Shown here: positions 1 through 5,921 of the stretch, piece by piece
Position numbering within the stretch: position 1 is the stretch's first letter
How the letters are laid out: each line of letters opens with the position of its first letter
Assembly (NCBI GenBank): GCA_903859115.1
Contig: CAIOLH010000187.1
Span: 1 to 5,928, forward strand
DNA: 5,928 bases
Direction: 5' to 3'
From: an uncultured Opitutia bacterium
GTDB lineage: Bacteria > Verrucomicrobiota > Verrucomicrobiae > Opitutales > UBA953
Translations under genes and position numbers: made by a program
The notes under the pieces: generated by a model
The model's input: only the letters and a program-made list of their open reading frames with translations
What the model was told of the DNA's origin: nothing
Databases searched by the model: none

Positions 1-540
1 AATGAACGTAATGAAAGTATCCACGGTGTAGCTTGCACCTTCCGCAAGCCTGCTGACGTCTATCACGCTGCGGAAAAAGTACGCGACGCGGGTTGGAAAT
101 ATTGGGATGTGCATTCGGCTTATCCGATTCACGGACTTGATCAAGCGATGGGTATGCCGCGTTCCAAAGTACCTCGTCTCACTTTATTAGGCGGTGTGAC
201 TGGTTTCATCACCGGTTGTTTACTCACCTGGTACATGAATTCATACGACTACCCACTCGTGGTTGGTGGTAAGCCATTTTGGAGTCCAATCTTCCCGTTC
301 CCAATCATGTACGAGTGCACGATTCTCTTCGCTGCTTTTGGTACATTCTTTGGACAGTTCATTTTAAATCGTCTCCCACAACACCATCACCCCTTATTCG
401 ATCTTCCGCAATTTGCGCGTACATCGGATGACTCGTTCATGATTGTTTTGGAAGCACGTGATTCCAAATTCCATTTAGATGAATCCCGAAACTTCTTACT
501 CTCTTTAGGGGGTCAAGAAATCACCGTTATTCGCGACTAA
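1..540 (+). CDS. actD: ActD, alternative complex III membrane subunit (DUF3341 family), 5'-partial
   Basis: Membrane subunit of alternative complex III (quinol:cytochrome c oxidoreductase); it carries no cofactor and probably has a structural role. The frame is open from base 1 with no in-frame stop, so the true start lies upstream of the window; 179 residues are visible. The segment before the GTG at 109 already reads as the conserved N-terminal ferredoxin-like part of the family (AAEKVRDAGW, then WDVHSAYPIHGLDQAMG), so that GTG is not the start. Family hallmarks follow: two hydrophobic helices at roughly visible residues 58-80 and 99-121, a YDYPLVVGGKP loop between them, and the HPLFDLPQFARTSDDSF block after the second helix. 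The C-terminal end (LSLGGQEITVIRD) is also typical. actE begins 6 bases after the stop. Probably only a few N-terminal residues are missing. Confidence 0.93.
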   Translation, partial: NERNESIHGVACTFRKPADVYHAAEKVRDAGWKYWDVHSAYPIHGLDQAMGMPRSKVPRLTLLGGVTGFITGCLLTWYMNSYDYPLVVGGKPFWSPIFPFPIMYECTILFAAFGTFFGQFILNRLPQHHHPLFDLPQFARTSDDSFMIVLEARDSKFHLDESRNFLLSLGGQEITVIRD

Positions 541-546
541 TCCACC

Positions 547-1263
547 ATGAGCCGCTATCTTACATTTCTCGCTATCGTTGTTGTTGCTGTGATCGGCTTC
601 CTTGGTTTCCAAGGAAAGACTTCGAAGCAAACTCCGATTTATGTTTTCGATGATATGGACTATCAGTCGAAGTATAAAGCCCAGGGCGAAAATACCTTCT
701 TCGCTGATGGACGCGATGCCCGCCCGCCTGTAGCTGGATCTGTGGCTCGCGGTACTGGACTCGAACCCACCAAAGTTTTCTCTGCAGAATATCGTCGCGC
801 TGAATCACTCAACGCAGCTTTCGTTACAGGAAAAGATGAGAAGGGTAATTTCCTTTTAGATTTCCCAGCCAAAAGTCTCACCACTTTATCGTCGGGCGAA
901 TTACAACCTTACACCATCGACAGTAAGGTTCTCGAATTAGGTCGTGCGAAATACCAAATCTATTGTGCAGTATGCCACGGACAAGCTGCCAATGGTAATG
1001 GTATTATGAAAGTGCGTTCAGCCATCGAAGGCGACATCGCGATCAACACGATTGCTAATTTACAAAGCGCTACTTACCGCGCCTACCCACAGGGCCAAAT
1101 TTTTGATGTGATCACCAACGGCAAAAATACCATGATGCCTTATGGCGATAAACTTTCACCTGAAGAACGCTGGGCGGTAGTTGCTTACTTGCGCGCCCTC
1201 CAACTTTCTCAGTTCTGCCCACCAGAAATCACCCCTGCCTCCATTAAGGCCACCGCCAAATAA
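547..1263 (+). CDS. actE: ActE, monoheme cytochrome c subunit of alternative complex III
   Basis: Periplasm-facing monoheme cytochrome c subunit of ACIII, which passes quinol-derived electrons to the next acceptor. It has 238 residues. Residues 4-22 form one hydrophobic segment that serves as export signal or membrane anchor. The block FFADGRDARPPVAGSVARG (residues 51-69) is the signature of ActE. The cytochrome domain covers about 127-222, with heme attachment site CAVCH (C140, C143, H144) and probable axial Met in TMMPYG (M196 or M197). Many ActE proteins are lipoproteins, but no lipobox cysteine follows the hydrophobic segment here, so this one is probably anchored by its uncleaved N-terminal helix. 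A single extra cysteine, C224, lies near the C-terminus. The ATG at 547 is 6 bases after actD and lacks a Shine-Dalgarno sequence. Position between actD and actF supports the assignment. Confidence 0.94.
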   Translation: MSRYLTFLAIVVVAVIGFLGFQGKTSKQTPIYVFDDMDYQSKYKAQGENTFFADGRDARPPVAGSVARGTGLEPTKVFSAEYRRAESLNAAFVTGKDEKGNFLLDFPAKSLTTLSSGELQPYTIDSKVLELGRAKYQIYCAVCHGQAANGNGIMKVRSAIEGDIAINTIANLQSATYRAYPQGQIFDVITNGKNTMMPYGDKLSPEERWAVVAYLRALQLSQFCPPEITPASIKATAK

Positions 1264-1269
1264 TTCGCC

Positions 1270-2538
1270 ATGAGCGCATCTCCTTCTCGTTTATCTTCAC
1301 ATTGGACAACTTTTGTTGCCATCGGCTTTGTTGCCTTGGTTGCGGTGTGGTCATTTGCCTTCCTGGGTCTAGGCGAACATAACCATCGTCCCGCACTCTC
1401 CGTTTTAGTCGGCTGCTTATTTTGGGTCTCTACACTGATCGGTATGTTGATGCTCACGATGATTACGCGTGTGTTCGACGCTGGTTGGGCTCCGCTTATT
1501 CGTCGTTCTTGGGAATTCATGATCGGCGCATTACCGATTGTAATTCTCTTAGGTATAGCTCCGTTAGCATTCCTTCCTGAGTTTCGACACTTATTATGGG
1601 AGTGGACTGACGCCTCACACATTTTACCGAGCGGACACGAAGTAGGGCACGATCCTATTCTCCAGGCCAAAAGCTGGTTCCTGAACGAAAACTTTTTCCT
1701 AATCCGTATCGCTGTTTACGTTTTATTCTTCGGCGCGATTACCTGGGCTCTCCGCAATTGGTCTTTCAAACAAGATAAAGAACGTACCGCGCAGCACACT
1801 CATACACTTCACGCGATTTCAGCAGTCGGAATTCCAGCAAGTGCGGTTTTACTCACCATGCTTGCATTCGATTGTTTGATGGCTCTTTCCTACCATTGGT
1901 TCTCAACCATGTATGGTGTATGGTTCTTCGCATTATCGATTCGATTGGCTTTAGCTGCCACGGTGATTGTAACCTACCGACTCTCTAACGGCGGTTGGCT
2001 CGACGGATTACTTAATCAAGCCCACCGTCACGTACTCGGCTGTCTGATGTTAGCCTTCACCGTTTTCTGGGCGTACATTAGTTTCTCTCAGTACTTCTTA
2101 ATTTATACTGCGAATATTCCTGAAGAAACTTTCTGGTATAACATTCGTGAATTCAATCCTGTCACTGGACTAAAGAGCGATTGGTGGGGTGTTTCGATGT
2201 ACCTCATTTTCGGATTCTTTTTCTTGCCGTTCCTTTCACTTTTATTCTACCGCTCGAAAATTATCGCAGGTCGATTACTCACCATCGCCTTCATTATTTT
2301 TGCCGGTGGTATCGTTGATCTTTGGTTCAACGCTGTCCCACGGCAAATCGTAGATAAAACCGCTCCCGAAGGTTTTACCGTGTCGCCCTTTATCAGTGGC
2401 TATCTCGCCTTAGACCTTCTCGCGATTGCTGGCTTTGGCTGCTTAGTCGTCGGACTATTTTTACGTGCCTCGACGAAGGCAGAAACTATCCCCGTCCACG
2501 ACCCTCGTATTCTCGAGTCTATCAATTACCATGAGTGA
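1270..2538 (+). CDS. actF: ActF, integral membrane subunit of alternative complex III (NrfD/PsrC-like)
   Basis: Polytopic subunit of ACIII, related to ActC and the NrfD/PsrC family, often annotated as quinone-binding subunit 2. It sits in the cytoplasmic membrane and is thought to contribute to quinol handling or proton movement; that role comes from the family. The protein has 422 residues with about ten hydrophobic helices (roughly 14-34, 44-66, 85-105, 142-162, 182-206, 212-237, 255-280, 306-328, 333-356, 374-398). Family landmarks are ITRVFDAGWAPLIRRSWE (65-82), YHWFSTMYGVWFF (208-220), WAYISFSQYFLIYTANIPEE (267-286) and the C-terminal PVHDPRILES (408-417). Length is normal. The start is 6 bases after actE and has no Shine-Dalgarno motif. 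The TGA stop is read through in another frame by the start of the next gene, an 8-base overlap. Confidence 0.95.
   Translation: MSASPSRLSSHWTTFVAIGFVALVAVWSFAFLGLGEHNHRPALSVLVGCLFWVSTLIGMLMLTMITRVFDAGWAPLIRRSWEFMIGALPIVILLGIAPLAFLPEFRHLLWEWTDASHILPSGHEVGHDPILQAKSWFLNENFFLIRIAVYVLFFGAITWALRNWSFKQDKERTAQHTHTLHAISAVGIPASAVLLTMLAFDCLMALSYHWFSTMYGVWFFALSIRLALAATVIVTYRLSNGGWLDGLLNQAHRHVLGCLMLAFTVFWAYISFSQYFLIYTANIPEETFWYNIREFNPVTGLKSDWWGVSMYLIFGFFFLPFLSLLFYRSKIIAGRLLTIAFIIFAGGIVDLWFNAVPRQIVDKTAPEGFTVSPFISGYLALDLLAIAGFGCLVVGLFLRASTKAETIPVHDPRILESINYHE
2531..2538 (+). other. 8-base start/stop overlap (ATGAGTGA), likely translational coupling
   Basis: The ATG of the cytochrome c gene lies 5 bases before the TGA stop of actF, in a different frame. 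No Shine-Dalgarno motif precedes it. Ribosomes ending actF could restart here, coupling the last ACIII subunit to the first gene of the cbb3-like module. This is the only overlap in the window and the only TGA stop; the other six genes end in TAA. Confidence 0.75.
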
Positions 2539-3289
2539 TAATTCTTCTAATGGAGATCGCCCTTTAATTCCTGCCCAAGTTGCTTCTTGGTTAGGTATTT
2601 TAGCTTTCGTTTTTGTAGCGATCTTCGCCATCGCCTACGCGTATGTTGCCTTCAGTCCGAAAACTAATTCTGATGTCGAACGTCGTATCGCTGAAAAAGC
2701 ACTCCGTGCGGACACTGAATCAAAAGCCAAAGGTTTGATTTCAGAGATAGGTCTCAACAGTGACGGAACTTATCGTGTACCAGCCGAAACTGCGATGTCA
2801 CTCATCGCTGCCGATCCTCAGTTAGTAAATAAAATGCGTAGCTACGCTGCCCCTGGTCCATCTGCACCTCAGCCAGTTACTGTTAAAACCGATGCACCTA
2901 AAGTAGCTGATGAAGAGACTTTAAAGCGCGGTTTAGCGGTCTACTCACGAACCTGTATTGCTTGTCACCAACCTACGGGCAAAGGACTCGCCCCCGTTTT
3001 TCCTCCTTTAGCTGAGTCGCCCATTGTGAACGGTGACGCTACACTACCTATCAAATTCATTCTTCATGGATTAATGGGACCAGTCACAGTTGCTGGTACG
3101 ACCTATAACAGCATGATGCCTGCGGTTGCAGGTGTGAGCGACCAAGAGATTTCGGATGTTCTCACTTACGTACGTGCTAGTTTTGGTAACAACTCTGGCC
3201 CAGTAACGGTTGAGCAAGTCAAAGCGGTACGTGATGCCAATGCTTCACGTAACACGCCATGGACCACAGCCGAATTAGGCCTTAAATAA
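2531..3289 (+). CDS. Membrane-anchored monoheme cytochrome c (class I)
   Basis: Predicted periplasmic electron carrier tethered to the membrane, probably linking ACIII to the cbb3-like module; that role is inferred from position. The 252-residue form starting at MSDNSSNGD is chosen: an ATG 66 bases upstream (2465) would only add an arginine-rich translation of the actF C-terminus. One helix lies at about 17-41. Residues 45-105 form a helical linker containing YRVPAETAMSLIAADP. A Pro/Ala-rich spacer leads to a class I cytochrome c domain (about 127-220) with CIACH (C142, C145, H146), the FPPLAESP loop (157-164) and probable axial Met at 195 or 196 (SMMP). A C-terminal extension of about 30 residues follows. 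The last gene of the window encodes a paralogue with the same fold and matching extension. It might be annotated generically as cytochrome c. Confidence 0.92.
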   Translation: MSDNSSNGDRPLIPAQVASWLGILAFVFVAIFAIAYAYVAFSPKTNSDVERRIAEKALRADTESKAKGLISEIGLNSDGTYRVPAETAMSLIAADPQLVNKMRSYAAPGPSAPQPVTVKTDAPKVADEETLKRGLAVYSRTCIACHQPTGKGLAPVFPPLAESPIVNGDATLPIKFILHGLMGPVTVAGTTYNSMMPAVAGVSDQEISDVLTYVRASFGNNSGPVTVEQVKAVRDANASRNTPWTTAELGLK

Positions 3290-3304: not shown

Positions 3305-4675
3305 ATGAGCCAGGACTATAACCGCCAATCACATTCATCCAGAGGCGACACGGGCAGCACGACTCCCGTCCGTTTGTTTTTTGCCTCCGCTTTAGGTTGG
3401 TTGATTATTTCATCGGCTCTCGGACTGATTGTAAGTCTTAAACTCCAACTGCCATCTTTCATGGGTGGTTGTGAATGGTTTACTTACGGTCGCTTATCGG
3501 TACTTCAACACAACGCTTTCACCTACGGTTGGATTGCTAACGCCATTTTCGGTGTGAACTTGTGGATCATGTCAGCGTTGGCTCGTTTCGAATTTAAAGA
3601 CAGCTGGTTAGCAGTCTGTGGATGGTTGGGCTGGAATCTCGCTCTTACTTTCGGGCTCGGTGCAATTTTCCTCGGACACCTCAATGGCTACGCGCTTTTA
3701 GAAATGCCCAAGGAAGTCGCTCCCGCTTTATTTATCAGTTTCCTCTTTGCTGCTCTCTGGCCTGCAGTTGCGTTTGTTCGTCGTCCTACTGGACACGTCT
3801 TCGTATCACAATGGTACATCATCGGTGCTTCCTTCGTCTTCCCAGTGGCCTTTGGTATTACTCAATTACTCGTTCTTTGGTATCCAACATCCGGAGTACT
3901 TCAGGCGCTCATCCACAGTTGGTTCATCCAAAATATTCAATTACTCTGGATTGGATCCTCAGCAATTTCCGCGACTTATTATTTCATTTCCAAGGAGTCT
4001 GGCCGCACCATCTCAGCTTATTATTTAGCCACTGTGGGATTCTGGACCTACTTCCTCTTTGCAGGTTGGACGGCTCCTGCTTCATTACTCGGTGGACCGA
4101 TTCCTGTTTGGATTCAATCCGTTGGCGTCATCACTTCACTGATGATGTTGGTTCCAATAATTATCTTGGGTATCAATTTCTTTGGAACACTTTCCTACAA
4201 TCGCGGATTCGCGGGTGCATGGAATAACACGACCCTGCGTTTCGTCTTGGTTGGTATCGTGAGCTTCGCAGTTTCATCTATCTTAAATATTGTTTTCTCA
4301 ACCCGCTCACTGAATGCGATTGTGCGTTTCACTGATTTCACTGTCGGACAACAACAACTCGTGAATTACGGCTTCGTATCGATGGTCATCTTCGGTGCCG
4401 CCTATTATATTCTTCCTCGTATCACTGGATCGTTCTGGCCTTCAGCGAAATTAGTTCACCTTCATTTCTGGTCTTCGGCTATCGGCGGACTCGGTTTAGC
4501 TATCCATCTTTTAATCTGTGGTTACCCTGCGGTTAATAGCGGAGTCATGAGCTATTACATTCCCGTTATCTTCTTCGTACTTTTACAATTAGTGGGACAT
4601 GTGGCCTTTGCGATTAACTCTTTCGTGATGCTCTTGGCTTCTGCTCGAAACTCCAACGACAATAACCACGCTTAA
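3305..4675 (+). CDS. CcoN-like protein (cbb3 oxidase subunit I family) lacking all canonical heme and CuB ligands
   Basis: Heme-copper oxidase subunit I homologue of the cbb3 (C-type) family: 456 residues, about 12 membrane helices, close to normal CcoN length. Family-typical blocks are EWFTYGRLSVL (57-67), SATYYFISKESGR (222-234), FTDFTVG (342-348), YYILPRITG (367-375) and LHFWSSAIGG (386-395). Aligned by eye with Pseudomonas CcoN (from memory), every metal ligand is replaced. The heme b His of helix 2 is Q68. The three CuB His are Q209, A259 and S260. The heme b3 and heme b His pair of helix 10 (G-H-x-H) is Q349 and Q351. The cross-linked Tyr aligns with A253, and the nearby Glu of helix 9 aligns with L327. 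Stretches between these sites align almost without gaps and the frame is intact, so it does not look like a decaying gene. Oxygen reduction by the known mechanism is not possible. A scaffold or electron-transfer partner for the adjacent CcoO is inferred. Databases would probably label it cbb3-type oxidase subunit I. Confidence 0.93.
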   Translation: MSQDYNRQSHSSRGDTGSTTPVRLFFASALGWLIISSALGLIVSLKLQLPSFMGGCEWFTYGRLSVLQHNAFTYGWIANAIFGVNLWIMSALARFEFKDSWLAVCGWLGWNLALTFGLGAIFLGHLNGYALLEMPKEVAPALFISFLFAALWPAVAFVRRPTGHVFVSQWYIIGASFVFPVAFGITQLLVLWYPTSGVLQALIHSWFIQNIQLLWIGSSAISATYYFISKESGRTISAYYLATVGFWTYFLFAGWTAPASLLGGPIPVWIQSVGVITSLMMLVPIIILGINFFGTLSYNRGFAGAWNNTTLRFVLVGIVSFAVSSILNIVFSTRSLNAIVRFTDFTVGQQQLVNYGFVSMVIFGAAYYILPRITGSFWPSAKLVHLHFWSSAIGGLGLAIHLLICGYPAVNSGVMSYYIPVIFFVLLQLVGHVAFAINSFVMLLASARNSNDNNHA

Positions 4676-4687
4676 ATTGCACTGAAC

Positions 4688-5239
4688 ATGAAGGACTTTA
4701 ATCTTATTCTGGCTGGTATTTTTTTCACCCTCGCTGCCTCTTTTGGTGGTCTGTTAATTAGTGGTGAAGTTCAATTAGGAACACTCGGTCGTGCACCGGC
4801 CGAAGAGGGTGGCGCACTTTTTCCTCCACGTGAAACCGGCTTAGCGATTCAAGGTCGCCAAGTGTATATCGAATTAGGCTGCGTTGCCTGTCATACCCAA
4901 CAGGTGCGTCCAGCAGGACAGGGTAACGATATCGCTAAGGGTTATGGTCCGCGTCCTTCCGTGGCTCGTGACTACGTTCTTCAGTCTCAATTACTCTTAG
5001 GTAATCATCGCAATGGACCCGATCTCGCCAACTACGGAGCTCGCGCTAAGTCCGATGACGAAATCCATGGTCACCTTCGATCGCCTGCAGCTGGTAGCAC
5101 GATGCCTGCGTACAATTTCTTATACGTCGTAGACAAAAATGGCATTACTCAGCCAACTGAGCGCGCTCAAGCCTTGGTCGCGTATTTAAAATCTCTTCGC
5201 ATCGACTACAATTCGCCTGAAGCGAAATTGAAACAGTAA
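4688..5239 (+). CDS. ccoO: CcoO-like monoheme cytochrome c, cbb3-type oxidase subunit II
   Basis: Membrane-anchored monoheme cytochrome c of the CcoO family, which in cbb3 oxidases passes electrons to subunit I. It has 183 residues, slightly short for CcoO. One N-terminal helix (about 5-24) is followed by a periplasmic domain. Family features in order are GRQVYIELGCVACHTQQVRP (56-75) with C65, C68 and H69 binding heme c, YGPRPSVARDYV (86-97), the GNHRNGPDLANYGAR block (105-119), HLRSP (129-133) and axial Met in STMPAYNFL (M139). All heme-binding residues are intact, in contrast to the CcoN-like protein encoded 12 bases upstream. If the partner binds no heme, this heme must deliver electrons elsewhere. 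The start ATG has no Shine-Dalgarno sequence. Confidence 0.93.
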   Translation: MKDFNLILAGIFFTLAASFGGLLISGEVQLGTLGRAPAEEGGALFPPRETGLAIQGRQVYIELGCVACHTQQVRPAGQGNDIAKGYGPRPSVARDYVLQSQLLLGNHRNGPDLANYGARAKSDDEIHGHLRSPAAGSTMPAYNFLYVVDKNGITQPTERAQALVAYLKSLRIDYNSPEAKLKQ

Positions 5240-5243
5240 TCCC

Positions 5244-5921
5244 ATGTCACAACATTCTCAAAATAACGATAAGCCTAATCGCTCCTTTGGCGAACAGGGT
5301 AATCTTTCCGACAATCGCTTAGTCGAAATCCACTCGCACCTCGCTCGCGACAAGGAAGAGCCCAGCGAAGGTTTTTCTATTCTGCCTATCGTCATTGTAT
5401 TTATCTTTTGCGGATTTGGTTTCTGGGCAGGTGTTTACCTGACCCGTAATTCGGGTGGATTCTCGGCCAGCTCATTCGATCTCGATGCCCCTAAGGTAGC
5501 TGCCGATAGCGGACCCAAGGCCTTTGAGCCTGATGTCGCTAAAGGTGAGAAGCTTTTCATCCAACAGTGTGCCTCTTGTCACCAAGCCACCGGTTTGGGC
5601 GTTCCTGGTGCCTTCCCGCCACTTGCTGGTTCTCCTTGGCCCGTGGGTAATGAAGAACGTATCATCAAAATCGTCCTCGCTGGCTTAGCGGGTGAAATCG
5701 AAGTGAACGGACAAAAATATGTCGGCAACATGCCCAACATCGGTGCAGGTTTAAAAGACGCTCAAGTCGCTAACATCGTTTCTTACGTTCGTTCAGCTTG
5801 GGGTAATAAAGGTGAGCCTGTTATGGACACCAAGGTGGCCGAAGTGCGCAAAGCCATTGGTGGTCGTGCTCAGTACAGTCCTAAAGAGATTCTCGATCAG
5901 CATCCTTTAGAATCTAAATAA
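5244..5921 (+). CDS. Membrane-anchored monoheme cytochrome c, in the position of CcoP
   Basis: Predicted membrane-tethered periplasmic electron carrier, 225 residues. A hydrophilic, probably cytoplasmic N-terminus (1-43) containing EIHSHLARDKEEPSEG precedes a single helix (about 44-66). A spacer then leads to a class I cytochrome c domain (about 95-188) with CASCH (C109, C112, H113), FPPLAGSP (124-131) and probable axial Met in NMPNIG (M163). A C-terminal tail of about 35 residues follows (QYSPKEIL). Gene order after ccoO suggests it takes the place of CcoP, but CcoP usually carries two heme c groups and only one CxxCH is present. It is paralogous to the cytochrome at 2531-3289: the FPPLA, YVRxxxGN and C-terminal tail segments line up. 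The start is 4 bases after ccoO. The window ends 7 bases after the stop, so the operon may continue. Confidence 0.92.
   Translation: MSQHSQNNDKPNRSFGEQGNLSDNRLVEIHSHLARDKEEPSEGFSILPIVIVFIFCGFGFWAGVYLTRNSGGFSASSFDLDAPKVAADSGPKAFEPDVAKGEKLFIQQCASCHQATGLGVPGAFPPLAGSPWPVGNEERIIKIVLAGLAGEIEVNGQKYVGNMPNIGAGLKDAQVANIVSYVRSAWGNKGEPVMDTKVAEVRKAIGGRAQYSPKEILDQHPLESK

Follow-up and report, generated by a model that had tools for sequence, protein, structure and literature searches.

Genes for C-type oxidases adjoin those of alternative complex III (ACIII) in verrucomicrobial methanotrophs and in Opitutaceae, according to the passage of PMC8498564 that cites Refojo et al. 2010 on this point, and an excerpt of the genome paper on a methanotroph describes a cbb3 oxidase co-located with ACIII (PMC6688271). 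Excerpts of the studies on Rhodothermus marinus (PMC5928083) and Flavobacterium johnsoniae (PMC8552683) report the association of ACIII with caa3/aa3 oxidases; the mono-heme subunit ActE is a proposed electron donor in the former (PMC5928083) and is dispensable in the latter (PMC8552683).

In contrast to CcoN of the cbb3 (C-type) oxidases, the CcoN-like protein encoded by the DNA described here (the whole stretch of 5,928 nucleotides is hereafter referred to as the window) has none of the six metal ligands and no cross-linked Tyr. The six His residues concerned come close to defining the heme-copper oxidase superfamily. On its plus strand, the window carries the 3' part of an ACIII operon, which encodes, in this order, ActD (partial), ActE, ActF, a cytochrome c, the CcoN-like protein, a FixO-like protein and another cytochrome c (Table 1).

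Table 1. Genes of the window and codons at the ligand positions of the CcoN-like protein
Feature	Position	Strand	Evidence
ActD subunit of ACIII; 5' end beyond window	1..540	+	PF11821, E 4.6e-60
ActE, mono-heme c subunit of ACIII	547..1263	+	PDB 6f0k_E, E 4.9e-31
ActF, ACIII membrane subunit	1270..2538	+	PDB 6f0k_F, E 1.9e-41; no Pfam/NCBIfam match above cut-off
Extra mono-heme cytochrome c, between ActF and CcoN-like gene	2531..3289	+	PF00034, E 8.5e-10
CcoN-like protein, 456 aa; six heme/CuB ligand positions and cross-linked Tyr all replaced	3305..4675	+	
Q68 codon (low-spin heme b His position)	3506..3508	+	3mk7_A alignment; computed from 3305
Q209 codon (CuB His position)	3929..3931	+	3mk7_A alignment; computed from 3305
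A259 and S260 codons (CuB His-His pair position)	4079..4084	+	3mk7_A alignment; computed from 3305
Q349, Q350 and Q351 codons (349, heme b3 His position; 351, heme b His position)	4349..4357	+	3mk7_A alignment; computed from 3305
FixO/CcoO-like mono-heme c subunit; CVACH motif	4688..5239	+	PF02433, E 7.8e-18; PDB CcoO 8smr_F, E 6.6e-16
Mono-heme cytochrome c in CcoP position, one CxxCH	5244..5921	+	PF00034, E 1.4e-14; TIGR00782 ccoP, E 9e-13, under its cut-off

The CcoN-like gene and its operon

The CcoN-like gene starts with ATG, and its reading frame is open along the full length. Residues 22-417 of the product match Pfam COX1 (PF00115; E 1.9e-34), and the closest PDB entries are the cbb3 CcoN chains 9g6b, 8smr and 3mk7, which places the protein with heme-copper oxidase subunits I, cbb3 being the nearest type. 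The predicted structure, a check suggested by an earlier reading of the sequence alone (hereafter, the sequence-only reading), likewise has the cbb3 CcoN fold. When the window protein alone was scored against the TIGR00780 ccoN equivalog model, it fell short of the cut-off (107.7 versus 583.15 bits).

In the HMMER alignment with Pseudomonas stutzeri CcoN (3mk7_A), H60, H207, H257, H258, H345 and H347 correspond to Q68, Q209, A259, S260, Q349 and Q351, respectively, and Y251 and E323 correspond to A253 and L327. We take H60 and H347 to be the ligands of low-spin heme b, H345 that of heme b3, H207, H257 and H258 those of CuB, Y251 the cross-linked active-site Tyr and E323 the helix-9 Glu. On these assignments, the window protein has neither the His pair of low-spin heme b (Q68, Q351), nor the heme b3 His (Q349) and the three CuB His (Q209; A259, S260), nor the active-site Tyr (A253). 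The sequence-only reading had named exactly these replacements, including those of the Tyr and the helix-9 Glu, in an intact 456-residue CcoN-like protein, and the comparison with P. stutzeri CcoN agrees with it at every position. The adjacent H69 was considered as a substitute for Q68 and ruled out because close relatives carry R or D at that position. The alignment supports the view that the protein is a CcoN descendant unable to form the normal metal sites, as was held in the sequence-only reading, which called it non-catalytic; that it would also be heme-free, as was suggested there with a 'perhaps', follows from the ligand loss. The alternative offered in the same place, an unknown chemistry, gained no support in this analysis.

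The gene order matches that of the family at large, in which the CcoN-like gene follows ActF, with or without one intervening cytochrome c gene, and precedes genes for a FixO-like and a mono-heme c protein. The intervening gene is missing from many other family loci; it occurs in the clade of the window and in part of the Haloferula-Luteolibacter clade (L176-L194) and was not seen in other branches. By inspection, the FixO-like protein has an N-terminal hydrophobic helix and the cytochrome in the CcoP position a hydrophobic N-terminal stretch. Both retain their candidate distal Met (M139 in the FixO-like protein).

All six His are absent from the 14 closest homologues among the matches listed (P0002-P0015; 86-94% identical), and the full ligand set is lacking in 50 of the 50 contigs found with a family profile (two of them partial, without site 68). 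The loss therefore is not a sequencing error, which the sequence-only reading had named as a possible refutation; the homologue search proposed there showed that the losses are shared. The window gene yields dN/dS values of 0.037, 0.057 and 0.055 against its relatives L001, L002 and L003, and the 12 pairs that gave values span 0.037-0.139, with dS >2 in two of the 12 and saturated dS in a 13th pair. The gene is under purifying selection, as had been surmised from the sequence.

Distribution of the family and history of ligand loss

The profile, built from 24 members, retrieved the 50 genome contigs mentioned above, most of them titled Opitutae, Opitutales or Verrucomicrobia, with odd titles such as 'bacterium' (L009) and 'Polynucleobacter' (L028). 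Our genome samples were drawn from a single phylum, Verrucomicrobiota, in which 121 of 387 genomes matched, 88 of them in the ACIII-linked family of ~500-residue proteins as delimited by a cut-off of our choice (E 1e-70). The full set of six His and Tyr is present in 28 of the 88 family genomes and is not found in the remaining 60; thus, many Verrucomicrobiota bear a CcoN-like protein that is stripped of its metal ligands and is kept intact next to ACIII. Six of the other 33 matching genomes were fetched and showed the full set, as did a second protein of genome G039. Full-set proteins from non-family genomes together with this second protein served as the outgroup, all 8 proteins of which come from the same phylum.

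Database searches with stripped queries gave 339, 1080 and 522 matches, the best 120 of which were listed in each case. Among these 360 homologues, which include the records of two of the queries themselves, 119 retain no ligand His, 240 retain a single one and one retains two (P0029 and P0056 have a gap at one ligand site). Because the queries were stripped and only the best 120 matches were taken, the three lists show shared losses and could hardly reveal intact members, which came from the phylum sample. Two listed homologues are titled as other phyla, namely, Armatimonadetes (P0189) and Phycisphaerae (P0337), and perhaps come from misbinned MAGs.

The stripped states vary by branch. At positions 68, 209, 253, 259, 260, 349 and 351, the window protein reads QQAASQQ, and others read AHSSRRW, QQGRHQQ, FEAADVQ, HSAQKFI, HHGQHFI, HNSQRYH, AAGVNQQ and more. 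Thus, the ligand sites differ widely among branches and partly even among near relatives. Separate branches repeatedly show Gln at 68, 209, 349 and 351, and some have kept a single ligand His, H68 or H209 (for instance, 118 of the 120 listed relatives of the Haloferula member), which could bind something. In the Opitutus-type branch (L130, L131, L136, L137, L143-L146 and P0242-P0361), positions 349/351 are Arg-Trp in 119 of the 120 listed relatives and Ser-Trp in one, which in the alignment has the appearance of a fixed replacement, not of drift. The helix-9 Glu position varies among the 28 intact members as well (L111-L166; A, F, I, L, M, Q or T), so that its loss in the window protein says little. 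Given this variation, proton uptake may even in the intact forms work differently from that of standard cbb3 oxidases.

Two trees were built. The quick tree comprised 93 of 113 rows, 20 near-duplicates having been removed by hand, and excluded the seven site columns; in the careful tree, long branches and more duplicates were dropped, leaving 55 of the 113 rows. The family forms a single clade apart from true CcoN/CcoNO in both, with support of 100 in the quick tree (87 family rows) and 100/100 in the careful tree (53 family rows). In the quick tree, the intact/stripped label requires four changes: in a 42-row clade that holds the window (support 100), in L113, which stands alone among intact rows, in L147/L148, and in a 19-row set (support 85) composed of the Haloferula-Luteolibacter clade (16 rows; 99) and L165, L185 and L189. 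These four changes are forced by starred branches, and the stars of quick trees are less trustworthy with long rows, which are present in this one. The careful tree requires three changes, two of them forced by well supported (starred) branches, and sets L147/L148, which shift between the trees, beside the Haloferula-Luteolibacter clade. None of its 200 bootstrap trees is compatible with a single change (5-95% range, 3-3). One ancestral loss, with all 64 stripped rows constrained together, was also rejected by the AU test (p-AU 0.00265), in which two trees were compared on the basis of the quick tree for a group picked after the labels had been seen. Judging from these phylogenies, two ligand losses are firm and three or four in total likely. 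The direction of change is read as loss because the outgroup proteins and the 28 intact family members share the complete set.

Linkage to ACIII, other oxidases and c-type subunits

Statements on hosts rest on the genomes of relatives of the window, not its own. In 84 of 85 sampled loci, the CcoN-like gene is preceded by ActF in the same orientation; the remaining locus is a 5.2-kb contig. Given that ActD is present in 87 of the 88 family genomes and that the family is absent from 35 of the 122 genomes with a strong ActD match (>140 bits; hand count), the family goes with ACIII, and ACIII also occurs without the family. Gene linkage and co-occurrence thus tie the CcoN-like gene to ACIII, of which the protein may be a subunit. 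At three loci (L171, L172 and L174), ActE and ActF alone adjoin the CcoN-like gene and ActD is on a different contig; the ACIII operon looks split there.

A second PF00115 protein (>300 bits) is encoded by 77 of 78 hosts of the stripped gene; in one stripped host, the MAG G020, no other heme-copper oxidase was seen. Since 26 of the 28 hosts of the intact gene also have another heme-copper oxidase, redundancy allows the loss without being sufficient to predict it. Our guess, from length, that the second oxidases are cbb3 fusions was wrong for the one host examined, in which inspection revealed an A-type oxidase (CoxB with a CxxCH, CoxA, CoxC and CoxD). A 721-aa gene downstream at L003 was likewise considered as a true CcoNO fusion and ruled out, since by inspection the sequence looks like an LptD-type outer-membrane protein, with neighbours resembling thioredoxin and ScpA. 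At two loci (L203 and L205), inspection showed a ~570-aa heme-copper-oxidase/NOR-like gene beside a divergent ~475-aa HCO-like gene, the pair being surrounded by SCO-like and cupredoxin-like genes, perhaps a system with two HCO-like subunits. The presence of intact family members, the loss of ligands on more than one occasion and the separate heme-copper oxidase in nearly all stripped hosts go beyond what the sequence-only reading had foreseen.

In 75 of 76 stripped loci, and in 26 of 28 intact ones, the 2 kb after the gene contain two genes with a single CxxCH each (L013, L124 and L138 are the three of the 104 loci without both); the ORFs were chosen for holding CxxCH, and the counts show only that such ORFs are at the right place. 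The distal Met of the FixO-like protein, a candidate role read from the alignment columns, as is that of the CcoP-like Met, occurs in all 26 intact rows and in 43 of the 76 stripped ones, the window among them; the other 33 stripped rows have Cys (15), His (6), Lys (4), Arg (4), Ala (1) or a gap (3). All 15 Cys come from the Haloferula-Luteolibacter clade, which has 21 loci. The CcoP-like Met persists in all 26 intact rows and in 74 of the 76 stripped ones. Hence, heme attachment persists while the FixO heme ligand changes in many stripped lineages, in which the heme potential presumably changed, too. This suggests that FixO-like c-hemes have been retuned in stripped lineages, and, with the Met replaced in 33 of 76 rows, the FixO-like heme may not relay electrons in every stripped member.

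Possible roles and comparison with known systems

We favour, with a probability of roughly 65%, the reading that a former ACIII-linked C-type oxidase was repeatedly turned into a non-catalytic scaffold; the CcoN-like protein is probably a structural part rather than an enzyme. The ancestor would have been a C-type oxidase tied to ACIII, the oxygen reduction of which was taken over by another oxidase of the host. The CcoN subunit would have remained as a membrane scaffold that positions the c-hemes of the FixO-like and CcoP-like proteins at the ACIII outlet and perhaps also docks an A-type oxidase; electrons would leave via the c-hemes and no longer enter CcoN. The sequence-only reading had proposed a scaffold joining ACIII to c-type cytochromes: the common operon with both is a fact, and the joining role, although we consider it the likeliest, is one that we infer. 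Against it count the host without a second oxidase, the 35 of 122 ACIII genomes without the family, the second oxidase in 26 of 28 intact hosts, the replacement of the FixO Met in 33 of 76 rows, the retention of H68 or H209 in some branches and the location of ActD on another contig at L171, L172 and L174. A fuller account, which we put forward tentatively and with the odds against it, would have the ACIII-linked oxidase repeatedly converted into a redox-free subunit of an ACIII-FixO-cytochrome c(-caa3) complex, where the fold would act either as a bridge or as an ion path coupled by conformation, and would have the FixO c-heme acquire Cys, His or Lys as axial ligands in several lineages.

The protein might instead take part in metal-free energy conversion, with a cofactor-free, conformationally coupled proton/ion path on ACIII, as has been proposed for the cofactor-free ActC and ActF. 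The membrane core is indeed still constrained without the catalytic site: 57 columns are >=85% identical across 105 family rows, and several of these (for example, W152, F179, P180 and W378) differ in the 8 outgroup CcoN rows. However, no conserved polar path emerged from the column comparison of family rows, and the polar residues R65, E130, Y166, Y321 and R421, which are invariant among intact members, are relaxed in the stripped forms, which makes this possibility unlikely.

An altered cofactor, whether an unusually ligated heme or a different metal, with a new redox role, appears quite improbable. The recurrence of Gln in separate branches, the single His kept in some and the Arg-Trp pair of the Opitutus-type relatives, which is not free drift, would fit such a cofactor, but Gln is a very unusual heme ligand, the sites vary widely between branches and partly between near relatives, and R65, R421 and the Tyr that are fixed in intact members are relaxed as well. 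Equally doubtful is a role in assembling or maturing the c-type subunits or the A-type oxidase, in which case the protein would not be a stable member of a complex. The gene shares its operon with cytochromes, and at 19 of 21 Haloferula-Luteolibacter loci the next genes after the module are coxA-coxC-coxB; yet the FixO-like partner stands beside the gene in nearly all loci, as in the stable CcoN-CcoO pair, and the entire long membrane core is constrained. A sequencing or assembly artefact or a decaying pseudogene is hardly credible, since we found no point in its favour and the losses are common to hundreds of database proteins and many contigs, including records named Opitutus sp. GAS368, Oleiharenicola lentus, Luteolibacter ambystomatis and Haloferula helveola, with dN/dS of ~0.05 among close relatives.

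Whichever role applies, what stands is a recurrent loss of metal sites inside an ACIII-linked oxidase family of Verrucomicrobiota, not one odd protein. The repeated origin of a large selected group that lacks the six His would show a use of the fold apart from redox chemistry, and, if the fuller account given tentatively above is true, a heme-copper oxidase core would have been retained as a constitutive, metal-free component of a respiratory complex. The finding also makes the role of supercomplex architecture testable, namely, what ACIII still needs of an oxidase without its chemistry. Intact and stripped versions, encoded in the same operon, offer a natural before-and-after comparison, and stripped ones are present in Opitutus, Oleiharenicola, Luteolibacter and Haloferula. 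Most of the named stripped records listed (Opitutus, Lacunisphaera, Oleiharenicola, Luteolibacter and a Haloferula) are labelled 'cbb3-type cytochrome c oxidase subunit I', so that high-affinity oxygen respiration may be over-predicted in Verrucomicrobiota; the Haloferula helveola record is labelled a conserved hypothetical protein. Searches of an open-access library revealed no report of a ligand-less CcoN, which does not show its absence from print.

Compared to a cbb3 operon, the operon partner in the window is ACIII, and the CcoP-like protein has one c-heme motif. The C-type oxidase genes mentioned in PMC8498564 come from the same phylum and gene neighbourhood as the window, so they probably represent the same locus. 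However, the passage concerned speaks of an oxidase, whereas the Opitutaceae records analysed here cannot form normal metal sites: Opitutus sp. GAS368, two Lacunisphaera MAGs and Oleiharenicola lentus read AHSSRRW or AHTSRRW at the seven positions (a lineage check confirmed that the records of these three genera belong to Opitutaceae, and the lineages of the other record names were checked as well). In the ACIII-aa3/caa3 supercomplexes of F. johnsoniae and R. marinus, as far as the excerpts describe them, ACIII genes likewise adjoin oxidase genes, but the neighbour of ACIII is an active oxidase there and a ligand-less CcoN-like subunit in the operon of the window.
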